DNA from: Treponema sp.
GTDB lineage: Bacteria > Spirochaetota > Spirochaetia > Treponematales > Breznakiellaceae
NCBI GenBank assembly: GCA_009784935.1
Contig: WQXI01000015.1
Span: 1-47,783, forward strand
DNA length: 47,783 nt
Reading direction: 5' to 3'
This document shows, in pieces, positions 26,713-42,419 of the stretch. Under the pieces are notes generated by a model. It was not told where the DNA came from and did not search any database. It saw nothing but the letters and a program-made list of their open reading frames with translations. Numbering within the stretch: the stretch's first letter is position 1; each line of letters starts with the position of its first letter. Position numbers and translations under genes: made by a program.

Positions 26713-27601
26713 ATTTGCCTCCGATTACCCTAAATGAATCCGAAAGATCCTTATATAATTGTATATCTTTAAAACCTCTTTTAGCAAGGGATTGTTTTAT
26801 ATTTTCCATTAAAGGAGGGTGAGCTTCTAATAATAAAAAACCGCCCTTTACAAGATAATCAGGCGCGTTATTAATTATCCGCTCGATTATTTCTAACCCT
26901 GATTCGCCGCCGTCAAGCGCGAGAAGCGGTTCGTTTTGTACTTCTGCAGATAGGGTTTTTATTTCTGCCGATGGAATATACGGCGGATTGGAGACGATAA
27001 GAGAGAACTTTTTCGGCGAAGAGTTCACAGAGAAAAGATCTCCGTGAAGAAATTGAATTTTATTTTTGCCAAGGAGTTTTTGTGAATTTTGTTTGGCGAT
27101 TTTGAGCGCTTTGGGGCAAATATCTGTTGCGTACACTTCCAGTTCCGGCAATTCATGTTTTAATGAAATCGCAATCGCTCCTGACCCGGTGCATAAATCC
27201 AAAACTTTTATTTTTTCTCCTTCTTTCTCTGTGATACTCTGTGTACTCTGTGGTTTGTATTTAGATATGTAGGAATCGATTATTTGTTGGGCAGCTTCTA
27301 CAAGAGTCTCTGTGTCGGGTCTTGGCACTAAAACATATTTATTTACAGTAAACTCAAGCCCCATAAATTCTTTTTTACCTGTTATATACGCGACACATTC
27401 TCCGTTTGATCTTCGTTCTATTAGTTTGCAGTACTTTTTACAGATCTTTTCTGAGATTGTTTCTGTGCCTGCAGTTAAAAGCGAAGTGCGGTTTGTTTTT
27501 AATAAAAACGCAAGTAAAACCGAAGCGTCTAGAGACGGAGTTTTTATATCTGCAAATTTTAAATCGGCGCTTCCCTGCGCCAGCGCTTCGCGGATGAGCA
27601 T
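26702..27601 (-). CDS. prmC: Release-factor glutamine methyltransferase PrmC, with repeat-derived insert
   Basis: Methylates the Gln of the GGQ motif of release factors using SAM; 299 aa. Blocks: YITGKKEFMGLEF, VLVPRPDTETLVE, SAM loop LDLCTGSGAIAI (135-146) and catalytic NPPY (205-208). Relative to the compact family layout there is an extra segment at about 110-131, between the PRPDTE helix and the SAM loop, and part of it (KPQSTQSITEKE) is encoded by a CACAGAG repeat tract. The core residues remain, so the enzyme is probably active. It follows its substrate gene prfA by 3 bp. Confidence 0.95.
   Translation of the reverse strand: MLIREALAQGSADLKFADIKTPSLDASVLLAFLLKTNRTSLLTAGTETISEKICKKYCKLIERRSNGECVAYITGKKEFMGLEFTVNKYVLVPRPDTETLVEAAQQIIDSYISKYKPQSTQSITEKEGEKIKVLDLCTGSGAIAISLKHELPELEVYATDICPKALKIAKQNSQKLLGKNKIQFLHGDLFSVNSSPKKFSLIVSNPPYIPSAEIKTLSAEVQNEPLLALDGGESGLEIIERIINNAPDYLVKGGFLLLEAHPPLMENIKQSLAKRGFKDIQLYKDLSDSFRVIGGKYEE
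27224..27256 (-). repeat. CACAGAG repeat tract inside prmC
   Basis: On the coding strand the stretch begins AAACCACAGAGTACACAGAG and goes on with a further CACAGAG copy. It encodes Lys-Pro-Gln-Ser-Thr-Gln-Ser-Ile-Thr-Glu in an added loop. The same units recur at 32819-32866, 35969-35994 and 40759-40797, in other genes and in other frames. Confidence 0.8.
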
Positions 27602-27604
27602 ATT

Positions 27605-28693
27605 CTAATCTTCGTCATTATCCGAACTTGCGCTGCTCATTAAAAGTTCTTCTTTTGCGGACAGCTTTAACGTATCAAAAAGTTCTGCAGTTTCGCCGTT
27701 CATTACAAGGTCGAGTTTATATAAAGTAAGGTTTATGCGGTGATCTGTAAGACGGTTTTGCGGAAAATTATAAGTTCTTATCCGCTGCGAACGATCGCCG
27801 GAACCTACTTGGCTTTTTCTTGCCTCGGCTCTCTGCGCGGCGGCTTTAGATTCTTCCAGCTCATAAATGCGGGCGCGTAATATGCGCATTGCCTTTGCCT
27901 TGTTTTTAATTTGGCTTTTTTCGTCTTGGCAGTGAACTGTTACTCCGGTAGGAAGGTGTGTTATGCGCACAGCAGAGTCGGTAGTGTTAACGCTTTGTCC
28001 TCCCGGACCGCCCGCGCGCATTACGTCAATACGAAGATCGTCCTGCTTTATGTCGATTTCGGTCTCGTCAGCTTCGGGCAAAACAGCTACAGTTACTGCG
28101 GATGTATGGATTCTTCCCGAAGCTTCTGTCGCAGGAACCCTCTGTACCCTGTGAACGCCGGATTCGTAGCGGAGGTTTTCGTAAACATTATTGCCGCTGA
28201 TAGAAAAAACAATTTCTTTAATGCCGCCGAGTTCGGTTTCGTTGGAATTCATTATTTCGAATTTCCAGCCTTTTGTTTCTGCAAAACGCGAGTACATTCT
28301 GTATAAATCCGCTACAAAAAGAGCTGCTTCATCGCCGCCTGTTCCTGCTCTAATTTCCATTATGATGTTTTTTTCATCTAATGGGTCTTTTGGTATAAGA
28401 AGGAATTTCAATTTTTCGTTGTCTGATTCTAGTTTGGTTTCGAGCTCTTTTAATTCTTCGCGCGCAAGCTCCTTCATGTCCGTATCTTTTTCATCCTGAA
28501 TAAGAGTTTTTGCGTCGCTGACTTGTTTTTCTAGAGCCTCTATATTGATGTGTAATTCGGAAATTTCGCTTAAATAGGAGTGCTCTTTCATTACGCTGCG
28601 GTAACGGTTTTGGTCTTTTACCAAAGAGGGGTCCTGAATAAGTTCTGACAGTTCATCGTATCTTTTAAGAAGGGAAATTAACCGTTCGTTCAT
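27605..28693 (-). CDS. prfA: Peptide chain release factor 1
   Basis: Reads UAA and UAG and triggers peptide release; 362 aa, full length. The codon-reading PAT tripeptide is at 187-189, and the peptidyl-hydrolysis GGQ at 231-233 within [14 protein letters not shown]. The start has only a weak SD; it lies 9 bp after the stop of a 55-aa gene, so translation may be coupled to it. Gene order prfA-prmC is the common bacterial pairing. Confidence 0.98.
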
Positions 28694-28702
28694 TTTATTG
28701 CC

Positions 28703-28870
28703 TTATTTTTCGTTAAAATTAGGACAGGAATAGATAACCAGTTCCATCGGATCGTCTTCGCTGGAAAACCTGTTCAGCGTTTCTCTTAGAGTCTCCTGCA
28801 CTTGGCAGTTTCCCGTAAACGAGCAAAACGGGCACGCGCCGTTTCCCCGTGCATTCATTTCGACTTGCAT
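28703..28870 (-). CDS. Short cysteine protein (55 aa) upstream of prfA
   Basis: A small open frame that ordinary length cut-offs would miss. It reads MQVEMNARGNGACPFCSFTG, then NCQVQETLRETLNRFSSEDD, ending YSCPNFNEK. Cys13 and Cys16 (CPFC), Cys22 and Cys49 could bind a metal. The frame is open throughout, runs up to 9 bp before prfA, and has a good promoter placed right at its start, which supports it being a gene. The first ATG coincides with the expected transcription start, so it may be leaderless; Met5 is an alternative start. I know no family name. Confidence 0.6.
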   Translation of the reverse strand: MQVEMNARGNGACPFCSFTGNCQVQETLRETLNRFSSEDDPMELVIYSCPNFNEK

Positions 28871-28875
28871 GGTTT

Positions 28876-28904
28876 ACAATAGCAGAAATATAAGCTTAAA
28901 GCAA
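28876..28904 (-). promoter_or_regulatory. Promoter of the 55-aa gene-prfA-prmC-capA operon
   Basis: On the minus strand: TTGCTT (28904-28899), a 17-bp spacer, and TATTGT (28881-28876). The -10 ends 5 nt before the ATG at 28870, so the mRNA would start at or beside the start codon. Confidence 0.55.
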
Positions 28905-28910
28905 GGTACT

Positions 28911-28972
28911 GGGGTCCTGTCGGCTGGTCAAAAATACCATGCTGCGCATACTATTTTTACCACCGACACCCC
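28911..28972. repeat. 62-bp imperfect inverted repeat between divergent operons
   Basis: AAAAATA (28930-28936) pairs with TATTTTT (28952-28958), with ATGC/GCAT inside around TGC. Outside, GGGGT..GTCGG..TGGT (from 28911) pairs, with small bulges, with ACCACCGACACCCC (28959-28972). It lies between two promoters facing apart, so it is not placed to terminate either gene; it could be an operator or a dispersed palindromic element. Confidence 0.6.
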
Positions 28973-28989
28973 TCAAGTAATTTTTTGTA

Positions 28990-29018
28990 CTTACATTTAT
29001 GAATTTTCGTGATATAAT
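28990..29018 (+). promoter_or_regulatory. Promoter of the 29034 gene pair
   Basis: CTTACA at 28990-28995, 17-bp spacer, TATAAT at 29013-29018 preceded by TG at 29010-29011 (extended -10). Expected start near 29025, leaving a leader of about 10 nt that is mainly the SD GAGGGG (29025-29030). Confidence 0.65.
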
Positions 29019-29033
29019 ATAGAAGAGGGGAAA

Positions 29034-29426
29034 TTGGAAAAATTTAATCAAATTATTCTCGGTATTCAGGAATGGTTTAAGAGGCTTTCTGCCGAAAACA
29101 AACGGCGGCTGGCGCTTTTTTGCACAATTGTTTTCGCCTTACTCCTGACAATATCCGTACTAACATCTCTAAAAGGCTGTCCCGAAAAAGAAGATGACGG
29201 TATGCCCGAAAGACGAAATCTTATCTCCCCGATTCCGGCAGAAGAGCTTTTTCTGCCCGATGAACCAGACTATATTCCCGGAGTAATTCTTGAACGGGAA
29301 CAAAGAGAAGCCTGGACAAATAATGACGCAAATGAACATTGGCAGGATGTTCTGAGTCATGGAGAAGAGCAGTGGCGCGAAAAAATAGAAGCCGCTATAG
29401 ATGAATATTTGGAGCGTATCCCATGA
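29034..29426 (+). CDS. Single-helix membrane-anchored protein
   Basis: A 130-aa protein of unknown family starting at TTG 29034, 3 nt after GAGGGG. Residues ~26-46 (a stretch starting LALFCTIVFALLL) are one membrane helix; the N-terminus is amphipathic and basic, so the ~85-residue acidic C-terminal part should be periplasmic, ending in EEQWREKIEAAIDEYLERIP, a likely helix. It overlaps the lipoprotein gene by ATGA. The pair suggests an inner-membrane partner for the outer-membrane lipoprotein (inference). Confidence 0.7.
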   Translation: MEKFNQIILGIQEWFKRLSAENKRRLALFCTIVFALLLTISVLTSLKGCPEKEDDGMPERRNLISPIPAEELFLPDEPDYIPGVILEREQREAWTNNDANEHWQDVLSHGEEQWREKIEAAIDEYLERIP

Positions 29427-30919
29427 AAAATACAAGTTTAGTTTTTTTATTGGCATTTATTTTATTGGTGTTCTCATGTAATGCAACCCCTCATTCTTGG
29501 CATAACCCGTTGATTGTTCCTTCTAATACTGAAACAGCGCAAACAGCAGCAACGGCAGAAAAGACCGAAGAAAAAATAGAAATAACAGAAACAGAAGAAG
29601 CGCCTAGTATTATTGAAGAAATCGCAGAAACTCCGGAAACAACAGGAGAAATTGTTTTAAATATAATAGAGACAGAAGAAGTTATCGCTTTTGCTATTGC
29701 CGAAGCGCAAACTCCTGTCCCTGCGCCAACACCGGCTCCAACGCCAGTGCCGACACCGGCTCCAACCCCGGTACCTGCGCCTGTACCTACTCCTACGCCA
29801 ACACCGGCTCCAACGCCACCAGCGCCTACACCAACGCCTGCGCCCACTCCAGCTCCAACACTGCCGCCAGCTCCAGTCCCTGCGCCGGTACCTGCACCTG
29901 TACCAACGCCCGAACCAACTGCAGAAGAATCGTCTCCGCGCAGAATTACTCCGGATTTCCCGTCGGGACCTGCGCCTATGGTTGATTCGCTCACTCAGAT
30001 GGGCATGATTCCTACAGACAGCGAAATAATGTATTCGAGAATTGTACGCGCAACAGTGGGGCAGATATTAGAAATTCCATATAGAGGATCGGGCTGGGTT
30101 TATTTGGGCGAACTCGCTTCGCGCCGCGGCATTGTTTATAATTCGCGCCGCAATGACCCTGATGGACTAAGTTTTATTTTTACGCTGGAAGAAGCCGGAA
30201 CTTATGCATTAAAATTTTACCGTCAGGATTTTATTAGAGATTTTATTATAAATGATCATGTTCAGGTGATTGTCGGAGAAGCGCCGTCAAGCGGCGCGGC
30301 TTGGTTTGGTCCGCCGCAGGAACGAAGCAGAATTGTAGCACAGCCGCGCTGGCCGTCAGCAATGGAAGAAGCGCAAATACGAAGCGGAGCAAGACCAACT
30401 GGTGAACCTGTAGTTTCCGGCGCTCCTCCGCAAGCTGCAGCGTCTGCTCAAGCTGCAACACCTGCACCTGTTACATCAGCGCCAACTGCACCTGCGGCTG
30501 TGCCGGAAGCTGCTGTTACCGCCGCTGTGCCTCCTGCGCCGCCGTTACCGCCGCCGGTAATGACGAGTACGCCTGCGACGCCTTCTGTTGTGACAGCGCC
30601 GCCGGTTATAACTCCTCCTACAGAAGAAAGATTATCGCCTGATTCAGTAATGCAAAGAGCTCAGCAATTATTTGAGGCTGGCAATACAACATCGGCAATA
30701 GCGTTACTCGATCAATTTATGCTGGAATACCCCGGCGGCAGTGACGAAGCTTATTGGCTTTTAGGGCAGTTTTATGAAGCGAACACACCAAGCAGAAACA
30801 TACTTCTTTCTTTGGATTATTATAACCGTCTTGTAAACGAGTATCCGCAAAGCAGGCGGCTAACAGAAGCCCGAAGACGCATAGCATATCTGGAAAGGTT
30901 TTATATTAATATTCGCTGA
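29423..30919 (+). CDS. Lipoprotein with Pro-rich stalk and C-terminal TPR
   Basis: A 498-aa lipoprotein: signal peptide with lipobox VFSC, an acidic Thr/Glu stretch, then at about 92-165 a Pro-Ala-Thr-Val repeat (PTPAPTPVP and similar), which forms an extended stalk. About 170-300 is a globular beta-type region (GQILEIPYRGSGWVYLGE). A second Ala/Pro linker follows, then at about 405-498 tetratricopeptide-like helices (AQQLFEAGNTTSAIALLDQF) of the CpoB/BamD kind. It may span the periplasm, perhaps binding peptidoglycan or outer-membrane machinery; function not shown. Its last 19 bp overlap the convergent ABC-F gene. Confidence 0.8.
   Translation: MKNTSLVFLLAFILLVFSCNATPHSWHNPLIVPSNTETAQTAATAEKTEEKIEITETEEAPSIIEEIAETPETTGEIVLNIIETEEVIAFAIAEAQTPVPAPTPAPTPVPTPAPTPVPAPVPTPTPTPAPTPPAPTPTPAPTPAPTLPPAPVPAPVPAPVPTPEPTAEESSPRRITPDFPSGPAPMVDSLTQMGMIPTDSEIMYSRIVRATVGQILEIPYRGSGWVYLGELASRRGIVYNSRRNDPDGLSFIFTLEEAGTYALKFYRQDFIRDFIINDHVQVIVGEAPSSGAAWFGPPQERSRIVAQPRWPSAMEEAQIRSGARPTGEPVVSGAPPQAAASAQAATPAPVTSAPTAPAAVPEAAVTAAVPPAPPLPPPVMTSTPATPSVVTAPPVITPPTEERLSPDSVMQRAQQLFEAGNTTSAIALLDQFMLEYPGGSDEAYWLLGQFYEANTPSRNILLSLDYYNRLVNEYPQSRRLTEARRRIAYLERFYINIR
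29700..29930 (+). repeat. Degenerate CCNRCNCCN tandem tract encoding the Pro stalk
   Basis: About 230 bp of irregular 6- to 12-bp units, such as CCGGCTCCAACGCCAGT, that encode alternating Pro with Thr, Ala or Val. Such DNA easily changes length by multiples of three, so the stalk length may vary between strains. Confidence 0.75.
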
Positions 30920-32544
30920 GAATACGCTTTGCTTCTAAGTTCTTTTACATTCTGGTCTTTTAAGTAATCGTCAAAGGGCATCATTCGGTCTATACAGCGA
31001 TCTCCCGTTTTTTCTTGGGGTAAGATTTCGATGATTCGGTTTGCGATAGAATTAATAAACTCGTGATCGTGCGAATTAAATAGAATCACTCCGGGAAAGG
31101 CTGTAAGTCCGTCATTAAGAGCAGTTATTGCTTCGAGGTCAAGATGATTTGTCGGCTCATCAAGGATTAAAACATTTGCGCTGCAGAGCATCATTTTAGA
31201 AAGCATGCAGCGGACTTTTTCGCCGCCGCTAAGCACGTTTACTGGTTTAAGCGCTTCTTCGCCGGAGAAAAGCATGCGGCCAAGAAAACTTCGTACATAG
31301 GTTTCATCCTGATCGGGCGAATATTGCCTAAGCCAGTCAGTTATCGATAGATCAGAATCAAAATATGCGGAGTTTTCTTTTGGAAAATACGAAAAAGACG
31401 TAGTCTGTCCCCAATAGTAATCTCCGCTTTCTGCTTGTTTTTCGCCTGCTATAATATCAAAAAAGGCAGATTTTGAAGTATGTTCGAGTCCTACAAAAGC
31501 AATCTTATCGCCTTTGTTTACAGTTAAAGAAAAATCTTTTAATAAAGCAGTACCTTCGAATGAATAATTTATTTTTTCTGCTCTTAAAACATTATTGCCT
31601 ATTTCGCGTTCGGGCTTAAAACCGACATACGGAAACTTACGGCTTGTTACGGGAACATTGTCAAGATCAAGTTTTTCCAGTACTTTTTTTCTGCTTGTCG
31701 CCTGACGCGCCTTGCTTGCGTTAGACGAAAACCTCTGTATAAAATCTTTTAATTCTTTTGCTTTTTCTTCACGTTTTTTTAACTGGTCTTTTGCCTGCCG
31801 CTGTAATATCTGGCTCATCTGATACCAGAAATCATAGTTGCCGGAATACGGAGATATTCTGCCAAAGTCGATGTCGCATACATTTGTACAGACTGCGTTT
31901 AAAAAGTGGCGGTCGTGTGATACGACAATTACCGTATTAGGAAAATCAATTAAAAACTCCTCAAGCCATGAGATGGATTCCAGATCCAAGCCATTGGTTG
32001 GTTCGTCCATAAGCAGAATATCGGGATTGCCAAAGAGAGCCTGCGCTAAAAGCACGCGTACTTTTTTTGATTCATCAAGTTCTGCCATTAATCGGCTGTG
32101 ATCATCTTCGTCTAGACCAAGACCGGAAAGAAGCTGGCTTGCCTGCGCTTCGGCTTCCCATCCTCCAAGATCTGCAAAATCTGCTTCCAGTTCGCTTGCT
32201 CTAAGACCGTCTTCTTCTGAAAAATCTTCTTTTGCATAAATTGCTTCGCGTTCTTTAAAAACTTTGTAAAGTTTTTGGTATCCCATAATTACGGTTTCTA
32301 AAGCAGGGTATTTTTCATATGCAAAGTGATCCTGCTTTAAGACAGCCATACGTTGATTTTTTGCAATTGAGATTTCTCCCTTGTCGTGTTCGATCTCGCC
32401 GGAAAGTATTTTTAGAAAAGTTGATTTACCCGCTCCGTTTGCGCCGATTATTCCGTAGCAGTTTCCGGGAGTGAATTTTAAATTAACGTCTTTAAAAAGA
32501 GTGCGCTCTCCAAAGACAAGGCTTACATCTGTAACGGTGATCAT
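30901..32544 (-). CDS. ABC-F ATPase (YbiT-like) with altered second Walker A
   Basis: Soluble ATPase of the ribosome-binding ABC-F type, 547 aa, no membrane helices. Domain 1: Walker A GANGAGKS (34-41), Walker B LLMDEPTNGLD, switch SHDRHF; its signature is degenerate (ELDESKKVRVLLAQ), as in YbiT. The arm/linker QRFSSNASKARQATSRKK lies at about 270-287. Domain 2: signature LSGGE (438-442), LILDEPTNHLD and NSHDHEF, but the P-loop is GLEHTSKS (352-359), with Ser in place of the Gly before Lys. The second site may bind nucleotide differently. It overlaps the helicase gene by 4 nt. Confidence 0.9.
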   Translation of the reverse strand: MITVTDVSLVFGERTLFKDVNLKFTPGNCYGIIGANGAGKSTFLKILSGEIEHDKGEISIAKNQRMAVLKQDHFAYEKYPALETVIMGYQKLYKVFKEREAIYAKEDFSEEDGLRASELEADFADLGGWEAEAQASQLLSGLGLDEDDHSRLMAELDESKKVRVLLAQALFGNPDILLMDEPTNGLDLESISWLEEFLIDFPNTVIVVSHDRHFLNAVCTNVCDIDFGRISPYSGNYDFWYQMSQILQRQAKDQLKKREEKAKELKDFIQRFSSNASKARQATSRKKVLEKLDLDNVPVTSRKFPYVGFKPEREIGNNVLRAEKINYSFEGTALLKDFSLTVNKGDKIAFVGLEHTSKSAFFDIIAGEKQAESGDYYWGQTTSFSYFPKENSAYFDSDLSITDWLRQYSPDQDETYVRSFLGRMLFSGEEALKPVNVLSGGEKVRCMLSKMMLCSANVLILDEPTNHLDLEAITALNDGLTAFPGVILFNSHDHEFINSIANRIIEILPQEKTGDRCIDRMMPFDDYLKDQNVKELRSKAYSQRILI

Positions 32545-34106
32545 TTTTTATTTTCCTTTTTTTTAAATATTCCAGCAAGTTTAGATAAAAACCCTTTCTT
32601 AGAAGAAGAATTAGAAACCACGGAGGGACACGGAGGTTTTGAAACAGAGCTTTTACCTTCTCCGTGAAACTCTGTGGTTAAATTCTTTTTTGCAGGTGCT
32701 CCTGCATATTTTTTCTTGTAATGCGCCATGCGTTCTTCCATGGAAAGCTGCGAGAGATTAGTGTTTTGCGTTCTTGGCGTTTTGGCGTCTTGGCGAGAGG
32801 TCTTCTTAGAAAATTCTCTTTCTCCTCTCTGTGACCTCTGCGCCCCTGTGCCTCTGTGTGATGCCTTCCCTTTAAATTCTCTCTTCGCTTTATCATCTCT
32901 TTTTCCGCGATCTTCATATCTATCAGTCTGTATCCGCATGCCTGCGCTTTTGTCTTGCGCATAATGTTCTTCCATCGCTATTTCCGAAGGAATTTTTTTG
33001 CCAATGTAGCGTTCGATTGCAGGCAGCTCGTAAACATCGTGTTCGCTTGAGAGAGTAAAGGCTTTCCCTGTTTTTCCCGCGCGCGCTGTTCTTCCGATTC
33101 TGTGAACATAATTTTCGGCTTCTGTCGGCACATCGTAATTTATAACCATCGAAAGACTTTCTATATCAAGACCGCGCGCCGCAACATCCGTTGCGACAAG
33201 CATTTTAATTTTTCCGGATTTTACGTTTTCAATTACTTTTAGACGTTTTACCTGCGGTAAATCGCCGATTATAAATTCGCAGGTGTAGCCGTTCATCTTT
33301 AGCCGTTTTGCGACAATTTCTGTGTGCTTCTTTGTATTACAAAAAATAATCGCGCTTTGCGGCTGTTCTTTCTGCAGTATACCCAAAAGCAGCGGCATTT
33401 TATCTTCTGACGGAACATGGTAAAGTATCTGTGTAATTTCTTCGACCGTTACTACTTCTGGTTCTATTTCGATCTCATGCGGCGATTTTGTATATTCCCA
33501 AGCAAGATTTTTTACCCATGCATTCAATGTCGCGCTGAACAACATTGTTTGTCTGCGGTCTGCAGGCGGAACTACTTTGATAAGTTTTCGCAAATCGGGA
33601 TAAAATCCCATATCAAACATACGGTCGGCTTCGTCAAGAACCAAAAACGAAATTTCCATCAGGTTCATTTTGCCGGATTTATTAAGGTCGAGAACCCGTC
33701 CCGGTGTCCCTACAAGTATTTGTACATTATCGCGCAGAAGTTTTTCCTGCTGAGCATAACCGACCCCGCCGTAAAAAGCGCCTGTTTTAAAAGGCAGGTA
33801 TTTGCCGAGCATTTTAGCCTCTTCTTCGATCTGAACGGCAAGCTCTCTTGTGGGAGCCATAATTATTGCTTTGCGCTTAAACAATGCTTCTTCTGTCAGC
33901 ATTCTTTGAAAAATTACGATTAAAAAAGCGGCGGTTTTTCCTGTGCCTGTCTGGGATTGAACATATAAATCTTGTTTTGAATTGCTGTTTTGGCTGCCAA
34001 AGGCATGGGAGAGTACCTGTTCCTGAACAGGCATGCATTCTATATATCCGGCTTCTGATATGCCTCTTTGTAAATCGGAATGCAGGTTAAAGTCTGTAAA
34101 TTTCAT
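32541..34106 (-). CDS. DEAD-box RNA helicase with repeat-laden tail
   Basis: ATP-dependent RNA helicase of the RhlB/RhlE type, 521 aa. Q motif region CMPVQEQV, Walker A SQTGTGKT (51-58), PTREL (85-89), DEAD (158-161), SAT (191-193) and HRIGRTARAG (335-344) are all intact. From ~390 the tail is basic and disordered. It holds three repeat-derived pieces: HRGTGAQRSQRGERE (CACAGAG type), SRQDAKTPRTQN (CGCCAAGA type) and, near 475-500, a segment coded by a 65-bp inverted element. It couples to the ABC-F gene by ATGA, so both may act on ribosomes. Confidence 0.93.
   Translation of the reverse strand: MKFTDFNLHSDLQRGISEAGYIECMPVQEQVLSHAFGSQNSNSKQDLYVQSQTGTGKTAAFLIVIFQRMLTEEALFKRKAIIMAPTRELAVQIEEEAKMLGKYLPFKTGAFYGGVGYAQQEKLLRDNVQILVGTPGRVLDLNKSGKMNLMEISFLVLDEADRMFDMGFYPDLRKLIKVVPPADRRQTMLFSATLNAWVKNLAWEYTKSPHEIEIEPEVVTVEEITQILYHVPSEDKMPLLLGILQKEQPQSAIIFCNTKKHTEIVAKRLKMNGYTCEFIIGDLPQVKRLKVIENVKSGKIKMLVATDVAARGLDIESLSMVINYDVPTEAENYVHRIGRTARAGKTGKAFTLSSEHDVYELPAIERYIGKKIPSEIAMEEHYAQDKSAGMRIQTDRYEDRGKRDDKAKREFKGKASHRGTGAQRSQRGEREFSKKTSRQDAKTPRTQNTNLSQLSMEERMAHYKKKYAGAPAKKNLTTEFHGEGKSSVSKPPCPSVVSNSSSKKGFLSKLAGIFKKKENKK
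32616..32680. repeat. 65-bp inverted element (ACCAC...GTGGT ends) inside the DEAD-box gene
   Basis: Left end AAACCACGGAGGGACACGGAGG (32616-32637, quoted in two blocks: AAACCACGGAGG, then GACACGGAGG) and right end CTTCTCCGTGAAACTC plus TGTGGTTAA (to about 32681) are imperfect inverted copies. The right half recurs in reverse in the intergenic element at 35894-35994, where ACCTTCTCCGTGAAACTC is the shared core. It encodes residues ~476-498 of the helicase tail without a stop. Confidence 0.7.
32771..32797 (-). repeat. CGCCAAGA-type repeat tract inside the DEAD-box gene
   Basis: On the plus strand TTCTTGGCGTTTTGGCGTC, then TTGGCGAG; on the coding strand CGCCAAGACGCCAAAACGCC followed by AAGAA. 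Three ~9- to 10-bp units coding for SRQDAKTPRT. Similar CGCCAAGACGCC units are familiar to me from unrelated bacterial genomes, but I cannot run the search. Confidence 0.7.
32819..32866 (-). repeat. CACAGAG repeat tract inside the DEAD-box gene
   Basis: On the coding strand: CACACAGAGGCACAGGGGCG, then CAGAGGTCACAGAGAGGAG. It encodes SHRGTGAQRSQRGERE, a different reading frame from the related tract in prmC. Confidence 0.75.
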
Positions 34107-34132
34107 AATCGCTGCCTTTATTTTAGCGATTT

Positions 34133-34161
34133 TTGAAGGTTTTGAGAAGGGATCCTAAGAA
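34133..34161 (+). promoter_or_regulatory. Possible promoter for the structured RNA at 34185-34330
   Basis: TTGAAG at 34133-34138, 17-bp spacer, TAAGAA at 34156-34161. Only a moderate match to consensus, but correctly spaced and 27 bp into the gap beside the divergent helicase gene. Confidence 0.35.
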
Positions 34162-34184
34162 GGCAAAAAATACGCAAAGTCTAG

Positions 34185-34330
34185 GAGTTTTTACAAAAAG
34201 GCGGGCTTTTAGCCCTAAAGTCCCCCGCAATAAAAGCCGATAATGTTATTACCGGGAGGGTATCCTCTCACAATCAGACGGTGTGCATAGGGCCAAAAGC
34301 CCTGACGTCCAGGCACATCGTCTTTTTTTT
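34185..34330 (+). ncRNA. Structured RNA candidate ending in an intrinsic terminator
   Basis: From about 34185 the plus strand can fold into several helices: GGGC/GCCC at 34203-34216, and CCCG-c-AATAA with TTATT-ac-CGGG at about 34226-34257. The final one is a ten-pair closing stem GACGGTGTGC (34277-34286) with GCACATCGTC (34314-34323), holding an inner GGGCCAAAAGCCC hairpin, and it runs straight into a T run up to 34330. That is an intrinsic terminator. No ORF fits and I recognise no Rfam class. A small RNA of about 145-170 nt is the simplest reading; boundaries are approximate. Confidence 0.45.
34277..34330 (+). terminator. Intrinsic terminator with branched stem
   Basis: GACGGTGTGC pairs with GCACATCGTC (one G-T pair) around a nested GGGC-CAAAA-GCCC hairpin, followed by T9 (34322-34330). 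Strong on the plus strand. No protein gene ends just before it, which points to a non-coding transcript upstream. Confidence 0.7.
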
Positions 34331-34331
34331 G

Positions 34332-34515: not shown

Positions 34516-34537
34516 TAATTGGCTGGTGGTTTTGATA

Positions 34538-34574
34538 CCCTTCGACGCTTCGACATGCTCAGCGTCCCAAGCTC
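34538..34574. repeat. CTTCGACATGCTCAGC-type palindromic repeat
   Basis: GACGCT (34544-34549) and AGCGTC (34561-34566) are inverted copies around TCGACATGCTC, inside CCCTTCGACGCTTCGACATG and CTCAGCGTCCCAAGCTC. This resembles a widespread short palindromic repeat built on CTTCGAC..GCTCAG. One copy is seen here. Confidence 0.5.
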
Positions 34575-34681
34575 GGAGGCGGATTCTTACAGAGTTTTTC
34601 TGGGCGGCTGTTTACCTTGCCTTCGTATTGGAAGTAACACTTTTAGGCACACATTGTTGTAAATTTAGTTAAATTTCATTA

Positions 34682-34710: not shown

Positions 34711-34744
34711 GAACCCATAAAATAACCCTATGGGAGGCCAGCAG

Positions 34745-35854: not shown

Positions 35855-35893
35855 AATACAATCCTTAGTGTAAGCGTGGATTAAGTAAGAGTT

Positions 35894-35994
35894 AACCACG
35901 GGGTACTGCTGTCCTGCGGACAGCTTGGAGTTTCACGGAGAAGGTTAAGATTTTCATATCAAAACCCCCGTGTTTCTCTGTGTACTCTGTGGTT
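35894..35994. repeat. 101-bp inverted element with nested hairpin after the ATPase gene
   Basis: AACCAC (35894-35899) and GTGGTT (35989-35994) bound it; CACGGGG and CCCCGTG inside also pair. The right half is CTCTGTGTACTCTGTGGTT, the left half contains GAGTTTCACGGAGAAGGT, the reverse of the core inside the helicase element. The left half carries an extra perfect hairpin GCTGTCCTGCGGACAGC (35908-35924). The T7 after the right end could make it the terminator of the ATPase gene. Confidence 0.7.
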
Positions 35995-36013
35995 TTTTTA
36001 TTCTTCTACTTTG

Positions 36014-37369
36014 TTACTTTTTTTTGAAACCTTCGGAAAGATTGCTGTCTCCGACGTTTCGGATTGTTCCGCCGCCTTGGTTGCGGTATTTCCCCGGGCT
36101 GATACCTGTGTATGCCTTAAATATTTTTGAGAACCAGCTTTGGTCTTCGAAACAGCAGCAAGCGGCGATCTCGCTTAACGACATTTCTGTATCCAGCAAA
36201 AGCCTGCTAGCCTTTTCTACACGCAGCCTGTTAAGGTATTTGGAAAGATTTTCACCCATTTCTTCTTTAAAGATCGTGCTAAAGTAGGGAGGCGACAATC
36301 CTGCTACAGCAGAGATTTCCTTTAGGCTGATCTTTCTTGTAAAGTTTTCCATGATAAAGTTTTCGGCTTTTCGCAGGGCTGCGGCATGGGGTATTCCCTT
36401 AAATGACGAGATGTTACCCGAAACCCTGTCAACGATGTTATGCAAAATGTCAGTGAGCTCTTCTATGGATTTGGCTTCCTGAACAAGCTTGAGGTTTTGG
36501 CTGTTTACTTCCATTGAGAGGTTCCCGCTCTGAGTTGGGCTTATTTCTACTCTAGAAATTAACACTACAATCTCAATTGCCCGCAGTTGTACGTATTTAA
36601 TCTGTCCTGGGTTTGTAAAGAACAACACTGCCAAGAGTTCGTCGAGTGTTTTCTTTGCCTCGGCAGGGTCACCCTTTCGTAAAGCAGATAACAGTACTTT
36701 TTCCTTTTCTAGAGGATAGCCCAACTTGTCGGTATTTTCGGGGTATTGCTGCTTTAATTCTTCGATAATTTTTGTTATAGTCTCTTGCTGCTGGGTTCTT
36801 CGTTTAATTGTTTCGTGATACTCCTCGCTTCCAGTACTAAGAGATTCCGCACATAGCTGCATCATCTCTGCCATGGATTGGACCTTGTCCCCATCCGCTT
36901 CCGGCAGAGAAGTGACGCGCTCTTTAAACTCTTCATTCGATATTTCACTATTGCACATAACAAAATTATCATTTGCATTTGAAAAAATGTCAACAGTTTT
37001 TTGCTTTTCTGTTAAAAAACCTGATCCCCTGATTGCGCCCGCGAAATTACCTTTTATATATACGGGGCTTGTCCAAAAAAGCAATCCTGTATTGCATTTA
37101 TAAATATGACATCCGCCCTTTTTATTTGCTTCTTTTACGGCGTTTATGTGCATTTCATGACAAGGATATTTGTCCTGCAAGTTAGATCCTTGGCGGTTAT
37201 TTTTACAATATGGACAAATTTTCATTTCCGGGCTGTTCTCTGTTCCGCACCTGTCCGGAAAGTCAGGTTTAAATGCGCTGTCATAAATGCATATGCAGCT
37301 GCCTGTCGCTTGATTGTAATCAAACATTATTTTTGCGGCTTTTTCTTTTAAGTTTACTTCTTGTTCCAT
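36014..37369 (-). CDS. PocR-domain AraC-family regulator (copy 2)
   Basis: Transcription regulator of 451 aa. N-terminal ~1-165 is a PocR-type sensor with a Cys-rich core (CGTENSP, ICPYCKNN, YPCHEMH, YKCNTG) and LLFWTSPVYIKGNFAGAI. A helical middle part leads to two AraC HTH motifs at ~345-445: ISLKEISAVAGLSPPYFSTIF and SLSEIAACCCFEDQSWFSKIF, then YTGISPGKYR. PocR domains bind small hydroxylated compounds, e.g. in propanediol/cobalamin control. It starts 19 bp after the stop of its paralogue upstream. Targets are not evident. Confidence 0.9.
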   Translation of the reverse strand: MEQEVNLKEKAAKIMFDYNQATGSCICIYDSAFKPDFPDRCGTENSPEMKICPYCKNNRQGSNLQDKYPCHEMHINAVKEANKKGGCHIYKCNTGLLFWTSPVYIKGNFAGAIRGSGFLTEKQKTVDIFSNANDNFVMCNSEISNEEFKERVTSLPEADGDKVQSMAEMMQLCAESLSTGSEEYHETIKRRTQQQETITKIIEELKQQYPENTDKLGYPLEKEKVLLSALRKGDPAEAKKTLDELLAVLFFTNPGQIKYVQLRAIEIVVLISRVEISPTQSGNLSMEVNSQNLKLVQEAKSIEELTDILHNIVDRVSGNISSFKGIPHAAALRKAENFIMENFTRKISLKEISAVAGLSPPYFSTIFKEEMGENLSKYLNRLRVEKASRLLLDTEMSLSEIAACCCFEDQSWFSKIFKAYTGISPGKYRNQGGGTIRNVGDSNLSEGFKKK

Positions 37370-37388
37370 AATTGTACCCTGTTTTCGG

Positions 37389-38573
37389 CTAACCTAGGAT
37401 ACTGCCTTCGGCAGTTATACCGTTTTCGCGGTATTTACCCGGGGTTAAGCCCGTGTTGTTTTTGAATATTTTTGAGAACCAGCTTTGATCCTCAAAACCG
37501 CATTTAGAAGCTATCTCGCTTATCGGCTGGTTTGTCGTTACCAGCATAGCGGCAGCTTTTTCTACACGCAGCCTGTTAAGGTAGTTTGAAAGGTTCTCAC
37601 CCATTTCTTCCTTAAAGACTGTGCTAAAATACGGAGCCGAAAGCCCGGACGCATTTGCGATTTCCTTTAAGCTAAGCTTTCTCGTATAATTTGTCCAAAT
37701 GTACCTTTCCGCCTTTCTTAGCGCCGAAAAATGACGCACTCCGGAAAAAGAAAATATTTTCCCGGACATCCGCTCTGTAATAGAGCAAAGAATTTCTGTA
37801 ATCTCTTCCAGGCTTCCGCTTTCTTCAATTTTTTTTATGCAATGGTTCATTGTCTCCAAGGATGAATTATCCTTGATGTAATGAGGGTCAGCCGACGCTC
37901 TCGAAAGCAGTACAGCCAGCTCCATTGCTTTTAGCCGGAAAACCGGAAAACTCCCCTTAACTATAAAATAGAGAATCTTAAGAAGATTGACCAGTATTTT
38001 TTTTGCGTCAATGTTATCTCCGCGGCGTAAACTTGCAATTAACATTCTTTCCATGTCAAATGTGCTTGTATTAGATTCGGATGTTATGTTTGTAACAGGT
38101 TGTTCGCATTTTTGTTCAGTTTTATTTTTTTTAACATCGCTGTATTCAGGATAAAAAACCACATTCTTTTGAATAATCGAAGCTTTTGTTATTTGATCGG
38201 CGCACAATAACATTATTTGAGCAAGGGATTTAACGCGCAAACTGTTTTTTTCTGTCTTTTTAAACCCGCCGGAGAACAGCGACCCCGCAAATCTTTCTCC
38301 CGAATAAAACGGACTTGTCCAAAAGACAAGGCTTTTTGGACATAAGTAGATATACGAGCCTCCCAATTCTCTTGCTTTATCAACAGCCTCCGAATGAATA
38401 AGGGAGCATTCTTTCTCTTTGCAGCGTTTGCAAATCGAATCCGGATTAACAGTTCCGGCTCCGGCAACAGAAGCTGATGAATTAGCGGCTTTTTCATAAA
38501 ACTTTGCGATTTTACTGGCTTTAAGCATTAACGGTTCAATTTCCCTTTTTTGGATAATGTTTAGTTTCGACAT
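37389..38573 (-). CDS. PocR-domain AraC-family regulator (copy 1)
   Basis: 394-aa paralogue of the next gene: PocR-like N-terminus (ICKRCKEKECSLIHSEAVDKA, YIYLCPKSLVFWTSPFYSG), and AraC HTHs with LSLKEIANASGLSAPYFSTVF and PISEIASKCGFEDQSWFSKIF before LTPGKYR. The sensor is shorter: ~55 residues missing between the PocR part and the helical linker. AAGGAG stands before the ATG at 38573. Both copies share FKEEMGENLSxYLNRLRVEKA almost exactly, so they arose by tandem duplication and then diverged in the sensor. Confidence 0.9.
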   Translation of the reverse strand: MSKLNIIQKREIEPLMLKASKIAKFYEKAANSSASVAGAGTVNPDSICKRCKEKECSLIHSEAVDKARELGGSYIYLCPKSLVFWTSPFYSGERFAGSLFSGGFKKTEKNSLRVKSLAQIMLLCADQITKASIIQKNVVFYPEYSDVKKNKTEQKCEQPVTNITSESNTSTFDMERMLIASLRRGDNIDAKKILVNLLKILYFIVKGSFPVFRLKAMELAVLLSRASADPHYIKDNSSLETMNHCIKKIEESGSLEEITEILCSITERMSGKIFSFSGVRHFSALRKAERYIWTNYTRKLSLKEIANASGLSAPYFSTVFKEEMGENLSNYLNRLRVEKAAAMLVTTNQPISEIASKCGFEDQSWFSKIFKNNTGLTPGKYRENGITAEGSILG

Positions 38574-38662
38574 TGGTCTCTCCTTATATAAATAAGGTAG
38601 AAAAACTCAATGGAACAAAATACACCCCATTTTAAGAAAAAATAATAACAAAAATGACCTTA

Positions 38663-38691
38663 TTGTGTGTTTTGAACATAAAATATATAAT
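38663..38691 (+). promoter_or_regulatory. Promoter of the WD40 gene
   Basis: TTGTGT (38663-38668), 17-bp spacer, TATAAT (38686-38691). It would start the mRNA at ~38698, one base before ATG 38699, which has no SD. Confidence 0.5.
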
Positions 38692-38698
38692 AAAAATT

Positions 38699-40627
38699 AT
38701 GAAAAATCGTTTGTTATCGCAGTTTCTTCTATTAACTGTATTATTTACAGCTTTTTGCTTAAATACTGCTGCGCAGACTGACGCGATTTCGTCTGTCGCT
38801 TTTAGTCCCTGCGGAACAATGATACTTTCTGAATCCGGCGGCAATGTGCTGCTTAGAGAAATCGAAACAGGTAAGGTTATAAGGATTTTTGCCGGCGGTT
38901 ATTCCGGCTGGTACGGTACCGCATTATTCAGCCCTGACGGCAGTAATGTTCTATTTGGAACTCTTGACGGCACTATAGTGATCTGGGATACCAATTCTGG
39001 TGAAGAAAAAATAAGAATTAATACAAATAGAATAATCCTATCTGCCTCGTATAATGCAGATGGAAGATTAATACTTATAAGTACAGAAGATAATAGAATT
39101 GAATTATGGGAAACAGCGTCAGGAAGCCTAATAAGAACAATTATTGACTCGCATAATATTTTTTCATCTGCCGCATTTAGTCCCTGCGGCGCATTTATTG
39201 TATCCGGCTCGGAAGAAGGAACGATTTTTTTATTTGAAACAGCGACAGGTAATCAAATAAGAATGTTTGAAGGTCATTCAGAAGAAGTTTATTCTGCCGC
39301 ATTTAGTCCATGCGGCGCATTCATTGTATCCGGCTCGGGAGATTTAACAATTAAATTATGGAATACTGCGACAGGAAGATTGATAAGAACACTTGACGGT
39401 CATTTTGAAGCAGTATTATTTGCCAGATTCAGCGCTGATGGGACTCAAATACTTTCTGGTTCGGCAGATTGGACATTGGCATTATGGGATGTAAGAACCG
39501 GCCGTTATTTGCGGGGTTTTTCTGAACATTTAGGTGATATTAATTGGGCTGCGTTTAGTCCCTGCGGAACCAGAATTGCTTCTGCTTCGGGTGATTCGTC
39601 TGTAAAACTTTGGGATATTTCATCCGGTTTAGCGATTAATACATACTTATTATTAGACGAGTTTGAATCTGTTTACAGCGCTGGATTTAATTCTGACGGT
39701 ACAAGGATTATTTCCGGGGGCAGAGACGGAATAATTAGAATTTGGGATACACAGTCAGGCGAATTGATAACTTCGATGTCAGGGCATTCAAAATATATTA
39801 GTTCTGTTTCATTTAGTCCCGGAGATTCTCTTGCGTTTTCTTCTTCCATGGACGGCTCTATTAGGTTTTGGGATATATCAAAGGAACGTTCTATTTTTAT
39901 TTTTCACACCTTTGCTGTGCATGGAATATTTGCCGCCGCATTAAGCCCTGACGGCAGAAGATTTGTTTCTGACGCTATTTTGAGAAATTTTACCAGAGTA
40001 GCGCTTTGGGATATTGCGGGATATTTTAATGTTGCCGAAGACGGGTTTCCGGAGATAGAGTATACTGTAATCGAAGAAACAGGTATGTTGGTGACTTCAG
40101 TTTCGTTCTCATATGACAGCAGATACTTTCTTGTAAGCTTTCCAAATGGAACAATTAATATTTATGAAGCTGAGACAGGTTCTTTTATAAAGGAATTGAA
40201 AGAAAGTGACTTTATAAAGGATTATGGATGGGTTCGCTCAGCGGTATTCAGCCGCTGCGGCAGATTTATAGCTTCCGGCTCGGATAAAAAAATTCATTTT
40301 TGGGATGCATTAGAAGGCGAAATAATCAGGACATTTGGGCAAGATTATACGAACTATACTTTTATGGGTGATGAAGTAAACAGCGTATCTTTTAACAATA
40401 ACACAAGCTTAATAGTTTCGGGATACGGAAACGGAACAATAGGGCTTTGGGATGTTTTAACAGGCGAATTAGTAAAATCATTTTCCGGGCATGAAGACAG
40501 CGTTAACACAGTTGTATTTAGTCCTGACGAAAGTCAAATATTATCCAGTTCTAGTGACGGAACAATAAGACTCTGGGATGTTTCATCAGGTAATTTAATA
40601 AGAACAATGGCTGTAAATTATGAATAA
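38699..40627 (+). CDS. Exported WD40-repeat protein (14 repeats)
   Basis: 642 aa. ATG 38699 gives a clean signal peptide (MKNRLLSQ, hydrophobic core, AAQ), whereas an ATG 15 codons upstream would precede the putative promoter -10. After the signal there are 14 WD40 units, each ending in a form of LWD, FWD, IWD or a variant (REIETG, WETASG, FETATG, YEAETG), which fits two 7-bladed propellers. Most units carry AFSPCG or FSPDG turns. Likely a periplasmic scaffold; the partner is unknown. It overlaps the mutase gene by 8 nt. Confidence 0.85.
   Translation: MKNRLLSQFLLLTVLFTAFCLNTAAQTDAISSVAFSPCGTMILSESGGNVLLREIETGKVIRIFAGGYSGWYGTALFSPDGSNVLFGTLDGTIVIWDTNSGEEKIRINTNRIILSASYNADGRLILISTEDNRIELWETASGSLIRTIIDSHNIFSSAAFSPCGAFIVSGSEEGTIFLFETATGNQIRMFEGHSEEVYSAAFSPCGAFIVSGSGDLTIKLWNTATGRLIRTLDGHFEAVLFARFSADGTQILSGSADWTLALWDVRTGRYLRGFSEHLGDINWAAFSPCGTRIASASGDSSVKLWDISSGLAINTYLLLDEFESVYSAGFNSDGTRIISGGRDGIIRIWDTQSGELITSMSGHSKYISSVSFSPGDSLAFSSSMDGSIRFWDISKERSIFIFHTFAVHGIFAAALSPDGRRFVSDAILRNFTRVALWDIAGYFNVAEDGFPEIEYTVIEETGMLVTSVSFSYDSRYFLVSFPNGTINIYEAETGSFIKELKESDFIKDYGWVRSAVFSRCGRFIASGSDKKIHFWDALEGEIIRTFGQDYTNYTFMGDEVNSVSFNNNTSLIVSGYGNGTIGLWDVLTGELVKSFSGHEDSVNTVVFSPDESQILSSSSDGTIRLWDVSSGNLIRTMAVNYE
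39167..39340 (+). repeat. 126-bp direct duplication of one WD40 unit
   Basis: From 39167 and again from 39293 the DNA is nearly identical for about 48 bp (TCTGCCGCATTTAGTCC then TGCGGCGCATT), spaced 126 bp, exactly one 42-residue repeat. A recent duplication or gene conversion inside the propeller. Confidence 0.7.
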
Positions 40628-42419
40628 TATGATTTTGTCCGCTTCCGGATGGCGCGGTATTTTTGCCGCAGACGGCGATGAAGAAAGCAGAACAGAGCAA
40701 ATCAGAGAAGAACATAAAATATTCTGCGCTTGCGCGGCAAAGGTATTTGCTGAATTCCTCACACAGAGACACAAAGACACAGAGAACACAGAGAAAATAA
40801 AGATTTTAATAGGTACCGATACACGCCCTACAGGTAAGTCAATAATAGAAGCGATGATACCTGTTTTATTATCGATGGGGTGTGATGTAAAGTACGCAGG
40901 CATTGTTGCCGCGCCGGAGATCATGGCGTGGGCGCGAACTTATAACATAAATAAATCGTGCGGTTTTATTTATGTCTCGGCGAGTCATAATCCAATTGGA
41001 CACAATGGATTAAAATTCGGGCTGACAGACGGCGGAGTGCTCGGCGCAGAAGAAGCGAATAAACTTATCAAGAATTTTAACTCGTTTACTGAAAATAAAG
41101 ATAATATTACAAAAATTAATTCTATTATTTTTACCACGAACCAGCACGAACCAACACGAACAGAAGAGAGAGATGTAAATACGAGTTCGTGTGGTTTGTG
41201 GTTAAATAAAAAGGAAAGTTTCAAAGCTTACTATGATTTTTGCGGCAAAGTTGTCTCAATGAAGAACAGTGTTATAAAAAATCCGCCGGGGATTGTCTGC
41301 GATTTTAACGGCAGTGCGCGCACAGTATCCATAGATAAAGATTTTTTTACCGCGCTTGGTTTTAAATTTAAAAGCATTAATGACAAACCAGGGCAGATTG
41401 TTCATCGAATAGTGCCGGAAGGTGATTCGCTCGAACCTTGCGCGCGGTTACTGGAAGAAGCCCATGCTCAAGACCCATCGTTTGTACTGGGGTATGTTCC
41501 CGATTGCGACGGCGACAGAGGCAATCTGGTTATATGGGACGATACAATTAATAAAGCGCGTCATCTCGAAGCGCAGGAAGTGTTCGCCCTTGCATGCCTT
41601 GCCGAGTTTGCTCACCTTGATAAAAAAGCGCTAAAAAAAGCGGCGGTTGCTATAAACGATCCTACTTCTATGAGAATAGATAGAATTGCAGAATGTTTTG
41701 GAATTTCTGTTTTTCGCGCAGAAGTAGGAGAAGCAAATGTTGTTACCCTCGCCCGAAACCTGCGCGAAGAAGGCTATCATGTGCGGATACTTGGCGAAGG
41801 TTCTGCCGGAGGAAACATTACTCATCCTTCTGCCGTTCGCGATCCTATAAATACTGTGCTTGCAATCGCAAAATTGCTTACGATAAGATCGGTTTGCTGT
41901 AAGGCAGGGCTTTATAAGATCTGGTGTAAAAAAAGCGGACAAATGAAAAAGTACAAAAGCAATTTTACGCTTGCGGACATTATAAAGAGCCTGCCGCAGT
42001 TTGCGACTACTGCCGCATACAATGAAAATGCAATTATGCGTATTAAAACAGCAGATCATGCTATACTAAAAGACAGGTATCAGGAAGTTTTTCTGCGGGA
42101 TTGGGAAGAAAAGAAAACCGAACTTAAAGAAAAATTTGGTTTTTGCGGCTGGGAAGCGATTGCCTATAACGGAACTGTGGAAAAGCGGAATCTAACCCGT
42201 TTTGGAGAAGCCGGCAGGGGAGGGCTTAAAGTCCTCTTTAAGGACAGCGCAGGAAAAGAAACCGCCTATATATGGATGAGGGGTTCTGCCACAGAGCCGG
42301 TTTTCCGCATAATGGCTGACGTGGAAGGAACAGACGTAGCAACAGCTGATAGCTGTGTTGAAAGGTATCTGTTAGACTGGCAGAGACAAATGATAATGAC
42401 CGCAGACACTGGCGAATAG
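40620..42419 (+). CDS. Alpha-D-phosphohexomutase (phosphoglucomutase/phosphomannomutase family) with two repeat-derived inserts
   Basis: Shifts phosphate between C1 and C6 of a hexose phosphate; 599 aa, long for the family. Catalytic phosphoserine loop SASHNP (120-125), metal loop DCDGDR (295-300, Cys where Pro is more usual), sugar loop GEGSAGG, and phosphate loop RGSATEP, with Ala for the common Gly (SGTEP). Extra segments at ~47-60 (LTQRHKDTENTEK) and ~170-198 (TTNQHEPTRTEE and on) are coded by CACAGAG and CACGAAC repeats. The core motifs remain, so activity is plausible; the exact substrate cannot be read. Confidence 0.88.
   Translation: MNNMILSASGWRGIFAADGDEESRTEQIREEHKIFCACAAKVFAEFLTQRHKDTENTEKIKILIGTDTRPTGKSIIEAMIPVLLSMGCDVKYAGIVAAPEIMAWARTYNINKSCGFIYVSASHNPIGHNGLKFGLTDGGVLGAEEANKLIKNFNSFTENKDNITKINSIIFTTNQHEPTRTEERDVNTSSCGLWLNKKESFKAYYDFCGKVVSMKNSVIKNPPGIVCDFNGSARTVSIDKDFFTALGFKFKSINDKPGQIVHRIVPEGDSLEPCARLLEEAHAQDPSFVLGYVPDCDGDRGNLVIWDDTINKARHLEAQEVFALACLAEFAHLDKKALKKAAVAINDPTSMRIDRIAECFGISVFRAEVGEANVVTLARNLREEGYHVRILGEGSAGGNITHPSAVRDPINTVLAIAKLLTIRSVCCKAGLYKIWCKKSGQMKKYKSNFTLADIIKSLPQFATTAAYNENAIMRIKTADHAILKDRYQEVFLRDWEEKKTELKEKFGFCGWEAIAYNGTVEKRNLTRFGEAGRGGLKVLFKDSAGKETAYIWMRGSATEPVFRIMADVEGTDVATADSCVERYLLDWQRQMIMTADTGE
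40759..40797 (+). repeat. CACAGAG repeat tract inside the phosphohexomutase gene
   Basis: CACACAGAGACACAAAGACA, then CAGAGAACACAGAGAAAA. It encodes TQRHKDTENTEK between the N-terminal strand and the conserved ILIGTDTRP block. Confidence 0.8.
41132..41203. repeat. 72-bp inverted element of CACGAAC type inside the phosphohexomutase gene
   Basis: Left: ACCACGAACCAGCACGAAC plus CAACACGAAC (41132-41161); right: GTTCGTGTGGTTTGTGGT (41186-41203). The ends pair as ACCAC with GTGGT, with CACGAAC/GTTCGTG inside. It is in frame and free of stops, and adds ~25 residues before the LNKKESFKAYYDF segment. Confidence 0.8.

Follow-up and report, generated by a model that had tools for sequence, protein, structure and literature searches.

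Repeat tracts in the window

The DNA analysed here, a stretch of 47,783 nucleotides from a Treponema sp. assembly (contig WQXI01000015.1; hereafter the window), carries short repeats in seven places: in a prmC-like methyltransferase gene, in the variable tail of a DEAD-box helicase gene (three tracts), in an intergenic gap and in a phosphohexomutase gene (two tracts; Table 1). Palindromes account for three of the seven and a half-palindrome for a fourth, with 7-bp units such as CACAGAG. The likely owner of these repeats is a small nuclease gene of the GxxExxY family, two members of which lie elsewhere in the same genome, each between inverted arrays of a different one of the window's unit classes.

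All seven tracts are where a sequence-only reading of the window, which missed the palindromes and the division of the units into distinct classes, had placed them, and the ribosomal-protein cluster, which it had described as free of the repeats, contains none of the 14 same-strand unit pairs spaced 6-14 bp that occur in the window. Across 200 third-order Markov simulations, 0.19 such pairs were expected and the maximum was 2. Counted singly, CACAGAG (17 against 3.3 expected; maximum 9) and ACCACnGAG (4 against 0.31; maximum 2) exceed every simulation, and CACGGAG, CACGAAC, CGCCAAGA, CACGAAG and CGCAGAG remain within the simulated range in the window, so the signal lies mainly in the spaced arrays. 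Genome-wide, paired units are likewise far above their controls: in the 2.37 Mb source assembly (94.6% complete) the strict dyad CACRGAGnnnCACRGAG has 107 matches (60 forward, 47 reverse) and the same pattern read backwards has none. The looser pattern CRCSAASN{1,4}CRCSAAS occurs in 37 places against 7 for its control, including, by our count, 27 CACGAAC pairs and 4 CGCCAAG pairs.

Element anatomy and unit classes

To describe the copies we used 83 distinct tracts of at least three units, from 71 sequences of the source genome, gathered around the dyad matches and the window and biased toward the strict dyad accordingly. Instead of the single repeat family that had been proposed, they comprise at least four unit classes, two of which, A and B, are also found on the flanks of GxxExxY genes, each beside a different gene. 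An intact class A copy is palindromic: the arm ACCACRGAG-nn-CACRGAG-nnn-CACRGAG, made of 7-bp units, is followed by a loop and then by its own inverse, which closes with GTGGT. In twelve distinct copies every one of the six units has the strict form; the loop measures 10 nt in one of them and 25-30 nt in the other eleven. Triple arrays starting with ACCAC, of which there are 63 distinct ones, invariably have spacers of exactly 2 and 3 bases when lengths from 1 to 4 are allowed. Weak conservation extends over about ten A/T-rich bases beyond ACCAC, which are probably part of the element; half elements, such as that in prmC, also exist. Class B starts with TCACAC and mixes CACRGAG, CACAAAG and CGCAGAG units (the mutase tract at 40759 and the helicase tract at 32819), while the units of classes C and D are CGCCAAG (helicase, 32771) and CACGAAC (mutase, 41132), respectively.

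In some class A copies one unit is replaced or split by a nested mini-hairpin of recurrent sequence (GCAACTAAAGTTGC among them), which gives the impression of an even smaller element inserted within a class A element. Between the two arms of the 12 full palindromes there is no co-variation at the A/G position (15 unit pairs agree and 21 differ; p 0.14), and a reading of the tracts as selected RNA or DNA stems was set aside on that ground. A CRISPR array is likewise excluded, as the repeats are 7 bp long, a few bp apart and head-to-head, in contrast to unique spacers of 25-40 bp. Rfam gave no match to the window at gathering scores.

Table 1. Repeat tracts in the window and the genes that hold them
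Feature	Position	Strand	Remark
prmC-like methyltransferase gene, host of the first tract	26702..27601	-	orthologue alignment
Class A half element ACCACAGAG-TA-CACAGAG-TAT-CACAGAG in prmC, read KPQSTQSITEK	27224..27256	-	(2,3) spacing
DEAD-box helicase gene, three tracts in variable tail	32541..34106	-	orthologue alignment
Class A palindrome AACCACGGAG-GGA-CACGGAG ... CTCCGTG-AAA-CTCTGTGGTT, 3' end of DEAD-box gene	32616..32680	.	sister tail unrelated, of similar length
Class C array CGCCAAGACGCCAAAACGCCAAGAA in DEAD-box gene	32771..32797	-	four CGCCAAG pairs genome-wide
Class B array ATCACACAGAGGCACAGGGGCGCAGAGGTCACAGAG in DEAD-box gene	32819..32866	-	class matches flanks of second GxxExxY gene (L380)
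Class A palindrome, intergenic	35894..35994	.	missing from the sister's orthologous gap
Nested mini-hairpin TACTGC-TGTCCTGCGGACA-GCTTGGAG replacing one unit	35904..35930	.	similar modules in L004, L006, L022, L048, L050
Phosphohexomutase gene (PGM_PMM domains), host of two tracts	40620..42419	+	domain scan, orthologue alignment
Class B array TCACACAGAGACACAAAGACACAGAGAACACAGAG in phosphohexomutase gene, read LTQRHKDTENTEK	40759..40797	+	class of the inverted arrays around L380; net gain ~4 residues
Class D palindrome ACCACGAAC-CAG-CACGAAC-CAA-CACGAAC ... GTTCGTG-TGGTTTGTGGT in phosphohexomutase gene	41132..41203	.	unit of the arrays around a relative's GxxExxY gene (L364); net gain ~8 residues

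A GxxExxY nuclease gene between inverted arrays

GxxExxY proteins (TIGR04256/PF13366) are RecB/Cas4-like PDDEXK nucleases of about 120 amino acids. Five of five proteins tested score 134-153 bits against a family cut-off of 35, and the restriction-like fold with invariant acidic and lysine active-site residues places them among the PDDEXK nucleases; a sequence profile compared with PDB chains returned one chain only, at E 0.43. Of the two GxxExxY genes in the source genome, one (contig 2, locus L327) lies between inverted class A arrays and the other (contig 28, L380) between inverted class B arrays. In a relative, the inverted arrays around a GxxExxY gene (L364) consist of class D units.

The association also emerges from the repeats alone. 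We assembled 237 loci containing a class A array (117 from genomes, 120 viral) and clustered the neighboring genes of the genome loci only, because related phage contigs dominated the full set. Among these 117 loci, chosen solely by the array, one GxxExxY cluster adjoins the array in four of its four loci, and in one Omnitrophota contig it does so twice over; in the ranking of neighbors it is second only to an open reading frame (ORF) cluster (5/10) that we take for a wrong reading frame.

Starting from the gene, we examined 134 GxxExxY loci with both flanks, which represent the better-scoring matches rather than all of them (140 domain matches, less identical proteins and short flanks), together with 215 other open frames of 100-300 codons from six-frame translation of the same loci. 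The same preset unit class stands inverted on both sides of 76/134 GxxExxY genes and of one control frame, and a strong flanking inverted repeat (score of at least 30) accompanies 75/134 and, again, one of 215. By origin, unit class and strong repeat are found in 49 and 50 of 70 loci from genomes selected by the units, in 23 and 20 of 47 from an unselected phylum sample, and in 4 and 5 of 17 from a family sample.

The kind of unit follows the phylogeny of the nuclease: on a tree of the 76 classified proteins, which is weakly resolved and in which near copies help clustering, unit class changes 23 times, compared to a mean of 41.2 when shuffled, and none of 200 shuffles was as low. One genome contains a recent duplication of a complete unit, in which two loci (L332 and L475) have 516 bp in common at 93.8% identity, comprising the gene and both inverted ends, within unrelated flanks; the common stretch stops within ~15 bp of the inverted termini, and its unit is outside the preset classes. 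A second pair (L308 and L462) has 426 bp in common at 79%, with differing right ends. In other genomes, the spacing of solo arrays, that is, arrays without the gene, matches that of the nuclease-flanking arrays in ~17 of 22 comparisons by our count, which is suggestive but says little because (2,2) spacing is so common.

Distribution across genomes, phages and plasmids

The three-unit array ACCACRGAGN{2,3}CACRGAGN{2,3}CACRGAG, scanned over 257 Gb, occurs in at least 117 genome records, where by our arithmetic, assuming equal base use, ~0.2 matches would be expected by chance. The guess that similar motifs exist in other phyla was thus right: the records name 19 phyla, a minimum, with five of the 117 archaeal and five without a named phylum. 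GxxExxY is encoded in 43 of 50 array-bearing genomes searched from this cross-phylum set. In a sample of 149 genomes of the window's phylum, presumably the Spirochaetota, 14 of which have the three-unit array, a strong GxxExxY match (above 50 bits, a limit that removes 7 of 43 matching genomes) is present in 9/14 array-bearing and 27/135 other genomes (Fisher p 9e-4). A family sample of 58 genomes contains the dyad in 16, a strong GxxExxY match in 14, and both in five.

A single GxxExxY query had 8 matches among 72,556 plasmids. Class A arrays are also frequent in related IMG/VR contigs (L188-L307), and the same query had no match among the 50,697 phage records of another collection, so the arrays may ride on phages without the nuclease; a closer set of seven GxxExxY proteins found no relative in IMG/VR.

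Relatives with and without the copies

Mobility of the repeats is well supported. A sister species of the same genus, represented by a 99% complete genome, has no dyads, compared to 107 in the source genome. The sister could be compared directly at six intergenic copies, namely the one in the window, three from contig 11 and two from contig 7, and it lacks all six; three more dyad sites (two from contig 11, one from contig 7) had no alignment across them. We also paired 11 IMG/VR tracts with a related contig with flanks 79-98% identical; several of these tracts are one position in related phages, leaving about five independent positions by our reading. The partner has no array in ten cases and a shorter one in the eleventh (L273), with size differences of 32 to 52 bp. 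One phage position (L207) fits a 5-bp duplication, the other positions do not, and the sister junctions are too diverged to read. The sequence-only reading had suggested a small mobile or templated repeat that behaves as a protein-coding insert; its first half stands on these sister and phage comparisons, and its second half does not hold as the main behavior of the repeat.

Copies inside genes

Under a strict rule, which calls a tract genic when the frame around it has at least 150 codons, 50 or more of them on each side of the tract, and which misses the window tracts near gene ends (32616-32680 and 40759-40797), 16 of the 83 tracts are in long frames and 67 are not. All six genic tracts of the window keep the frame open, as previously noted. 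That they sit in extra loops or in the tail holds only in part: an alignment of prmC shows ~15 additional residues that are absent or mostly absent in five of five relatives; in the mutase, existing loop sequence has been replaced, with a net gain of only ~4 and ~8 residues, and in the helicase a variable tail has been replaced with no net gain over the sister species. These orthologue comparisons cover the three window genes.

In-frame occurrence in conserved genes extends beyond the window. Ten host proteins drawn from the frames holding the 16 tracts, nine from outside the window plus the mutase, all contain conserved domains: ATP-grasp, Pyr_redox_2, HydF, Lnt, Mur ligase (two tracts), DXP reductoisomerase, a PP-loop protein, TrpF, TrpC and phosphohexomutase. 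None of the nine outside hosts has a stop across the tract, and the peptides encoded by the tracts resemble one another (for example, PQRSQSFTEEEK...CSSVYSVV in TrpC and PQSSRSSTEEEKE in HydF). The elements are open in 3.63 of six frames, compared to 2.99 for random genomic DNA; because this is only a modest excess, the in-frame copies are probably survivors of selection, and their presence in proteins is a side effect.

Origin of the repeats

We consider it probable, at roughly two chances in three, that the tracts stem, as copies or remnants, from mobile elements of very small size, that an element in complete form is a GxxExxY gene between inverted unit arrays, and that the solo tracts are non-autonomous derivatives. 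A complete element would span ~0.4-0.5 kb and consist of that single gene and two inverted arrays of short units (7 bp in the window classes); the palindromes and half arrays of the window would have lost the gene. Class A solos (ACCACRGAG, spacing 2,3) would pair with the contig 2 nuclease, and class B solos (TCACACRGAG) with that on contig 28. The nuclease may recognize its own unit, either as a spaced array or as a hairpin, and cut at or near it, after which host replication or repair, possibly through the hairpin, would copy the arms to a new place, often with the loss of a few target bases. A copy in a gene would survive only if it leaves the reading frame open and falls in a loop or linker that can accommodate it.

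Several observations weigh against this explanation. Classes C and D have no cognate GxxExxY gene in the 94.6%-complete assembly, and 42 of the 134 GxxExxY loci have neither a unit class nor a strong inverted repeat. The gene was not found in 7 of the 50 cross-phylum genomes with arrays, and a strong match is absent from 5 of the 14 array-bearing genomes of the phylum sample; setting 43/50 against the 36/149 of that sample mixes phyla and sampling schemes. In the family sample, dyads and GxxExxY show no clear excess of co-occurrence (5/16 genomes with dyads, 9/42 without; no formal test), and one genome of 66% completeness (G163) has 21 dyads and no GxxExxY. Presence or absence in phages does not by itself separate insertion from loss, and no consistent target-site duplication was found. 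Genic copies often substitute for sequence instead of adding to it. Finally, genes of a second family, S23 (see below), are likewise flanked by inverted arrays, so the nuclease is no general requirement for such arrays.

The strongest competitor is homing, in which older palindromic arrays, spread by host processes or another enzyme, provide loops that the GxxExxY gene invades, so that solos are empty targets. Such a history would suit the dozens of solo tracts beside only two gene-bearing ones in the source genome, the frequent differences in unit letters between the arrays on either side of a gene (and likewise between solo arms), and the arrays on IMG/VR contigs, given that none of the phage records matched the GxxExxY query. 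We regard it as unlikely: the two loci of the recent duplication share the gene and both inverted ends in unrelated flanks, indicating that the whole unit moved, the unit type tracks the nuclease clade, and the solos would still need a mover, the Y1 transposase profile PF01797 having no match in the source genome.

Somewhat less probable again is that the tracts are ordinary miniature inverted-repeat transposable elements (MITEs) of a DDE or HUH transposase that acts in trans or is missing from the assembly, with GxxExxY as cargo or present for defence or repair. Size and inverted arms are MITE-like, a transposase gene may indeed be missing because the assembly is 94.6% complete, and the S23 family also occurs between such arrays. 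Against these points stand the failure of PF01797 to match in the source genome and the recurrence of GxxExxY as the partner across phyla, both in the loci chosen by array (4/4) and in those chosen by gene (76/134 against 1/215); nor would a cargo gene be expected to track the letters of the array.

We give little credence to the idea that the units are functional sites spread by selection, whether uptake-signal-like, regulatory or nucleoid-binding, with the palindromes serving as terminators. Many copies are intergenic palindromes, one that was examined stands directly behind a stop codon, and the motif is degenerate at one base as a binding site might be, but the sister has no dyads, the distribution in the family is patchy (16/58), copies are found inside enzymes and are carried with a nuclease gene, and the orthologous positions are not conserved at six of six sites. 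Chance or low-complexity sequence, to which the lack of enrichment of several single units in the window might point, is refuted by the 14 spaced pairs against 0.19 expected and by the 107 dyads against none.

Known systems and a second gene family

A close precedent is the REP/REPIN system of repetitive extragenic palindromes with its REP-associated tyrosine transposase (RAYT, or TnpA-REP), which PMC3733652 describes as many short dispersed palindromes, some of them genic, with a dedicated single gene between repeats. The same plan of a gene between inverted repeats is found at both source-genome GxxExxY genes and at 76/134 loci, but the gene is a PDDEXK nuclease rather than a Y1/HUH enzyme, and the arms are arrays of 7-bp units. 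A REP/RAYT system proper was rejected, as PF01797 has no match in the 94.6%-complete source genome. A repeat with its own gene is an already-known plan, that of REP/RAYT, and the link between GxxExxY and the repeats is our main result. We did not find this link described in full-text literature searches, in which the search by unit was weak and most subscription papers and bioRxiv were beyond reach. Cas4, lambda exonuclease and Hjc-type enzymes are PDDEXK nucleases as well; they differ from the protein considered here, which is a stand-alone one of ~120 amino acids between repeat arrays.

Rickettsia palindromic elements (RPEs) resemble the genic tracts in being palindromic repeats in frame inside unrelated conserved genes (PMC10969869). 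They differ in that most copies here (67/83) are outside long frames, where an RPE-like family would have most of its copies inside protein genes, and in that the units are modular, linked to a candidate nuclease and found in at least 19 phyla. We know of no gene linked to RPEs.

A parallel to GxxExxY is offered by PF05635, the S23 four-helix bundle, which is above cut-off in 28 of the same 43 genomes and has no match in the source genome. S23 loci (L485-L510, for example L491, L494, L501 and L502) have an inverted-repeat score of at least 30 in 18 of 26 cases, and none of the 26 carries a GxxExxY unit class; their units look like GGGAGTA, GGGGCAT, AACTAGG, ATCAGCG and others. Each of the two gene families thus goes with units of its own, and arrays as termini are not confined to the nuclease. 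The intervening sequence (IVS) in the 23S rRNA gene of Coxiella, according to PMC4990558, is 428 nt long, with terminal inverted repeats and an S23 ORF, and has been called a selfish element; such IVSs are sporadic and thought to be horizontally transferred (PMC4990558). They share with the elements proposed here a small size and one small ORF between terminal inverted repeats (PMC4990558), and differ in the protein and the units, and in that the window tracts are in protein genes and one intergenic gap.

Three other stretches of the window drew attention. That at 34540-34580, CTTCGACGCTTCGACATGCTCAGCG, resembles another dispersed palindrome of many bacteria (the CTTCGACAAGCTCAG type) and was not counted. 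A two-copy, 126-bp tandem repeat in a WD40-like repeat gene (39167-39424) and a PAPTP-rich low-complexity stretch in a probable lipoprotein gene (29720-29915) look ordinary.

Implications

More broadly, and only tentatively, we suggest that these elements form a class of mobile DNA in its own right, perhaps the smallest that is autonomous, with movement by a stand-alone Cas4-like PDDEXK nuclease rather than by a DDE, HUH, tyrosine or serine recombinase. Because the termini of such elements would be arrays of a nuclease-specific unit, each nuclease clade would have its own repeat family (CACRGAG, CRCRAAG, CACGAAC, CGCAGAT, ACAGGATTAA and others), and together these may account for a sizeable part of the short dispersed repeats still lacking an explanation in bacteria and archaea; S23 would be a parallel class, with the 23S rRNA IVS as one local form. 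Short dispersed repeats of this type are common in genomes, and we found no accepted owner for them in the literature searched.

If it is true that the nuclease is the mover, this would be a new class of element; GxxExxY, annotated by its motif alone, would acquire a function, and the way in which sequence-specific nucleases turn into mobile elements could be studied in a very small system. Specificity can be tested directly, given that unit type is matched to nuclease clade. Housekeeping enzymes, here the products of prmC, dxr, trpF, trpC, lnt, hydF and a Mur ligase gene, would be gaining peptides from selfish DNA by a route still in use, as described for Rickettsia.

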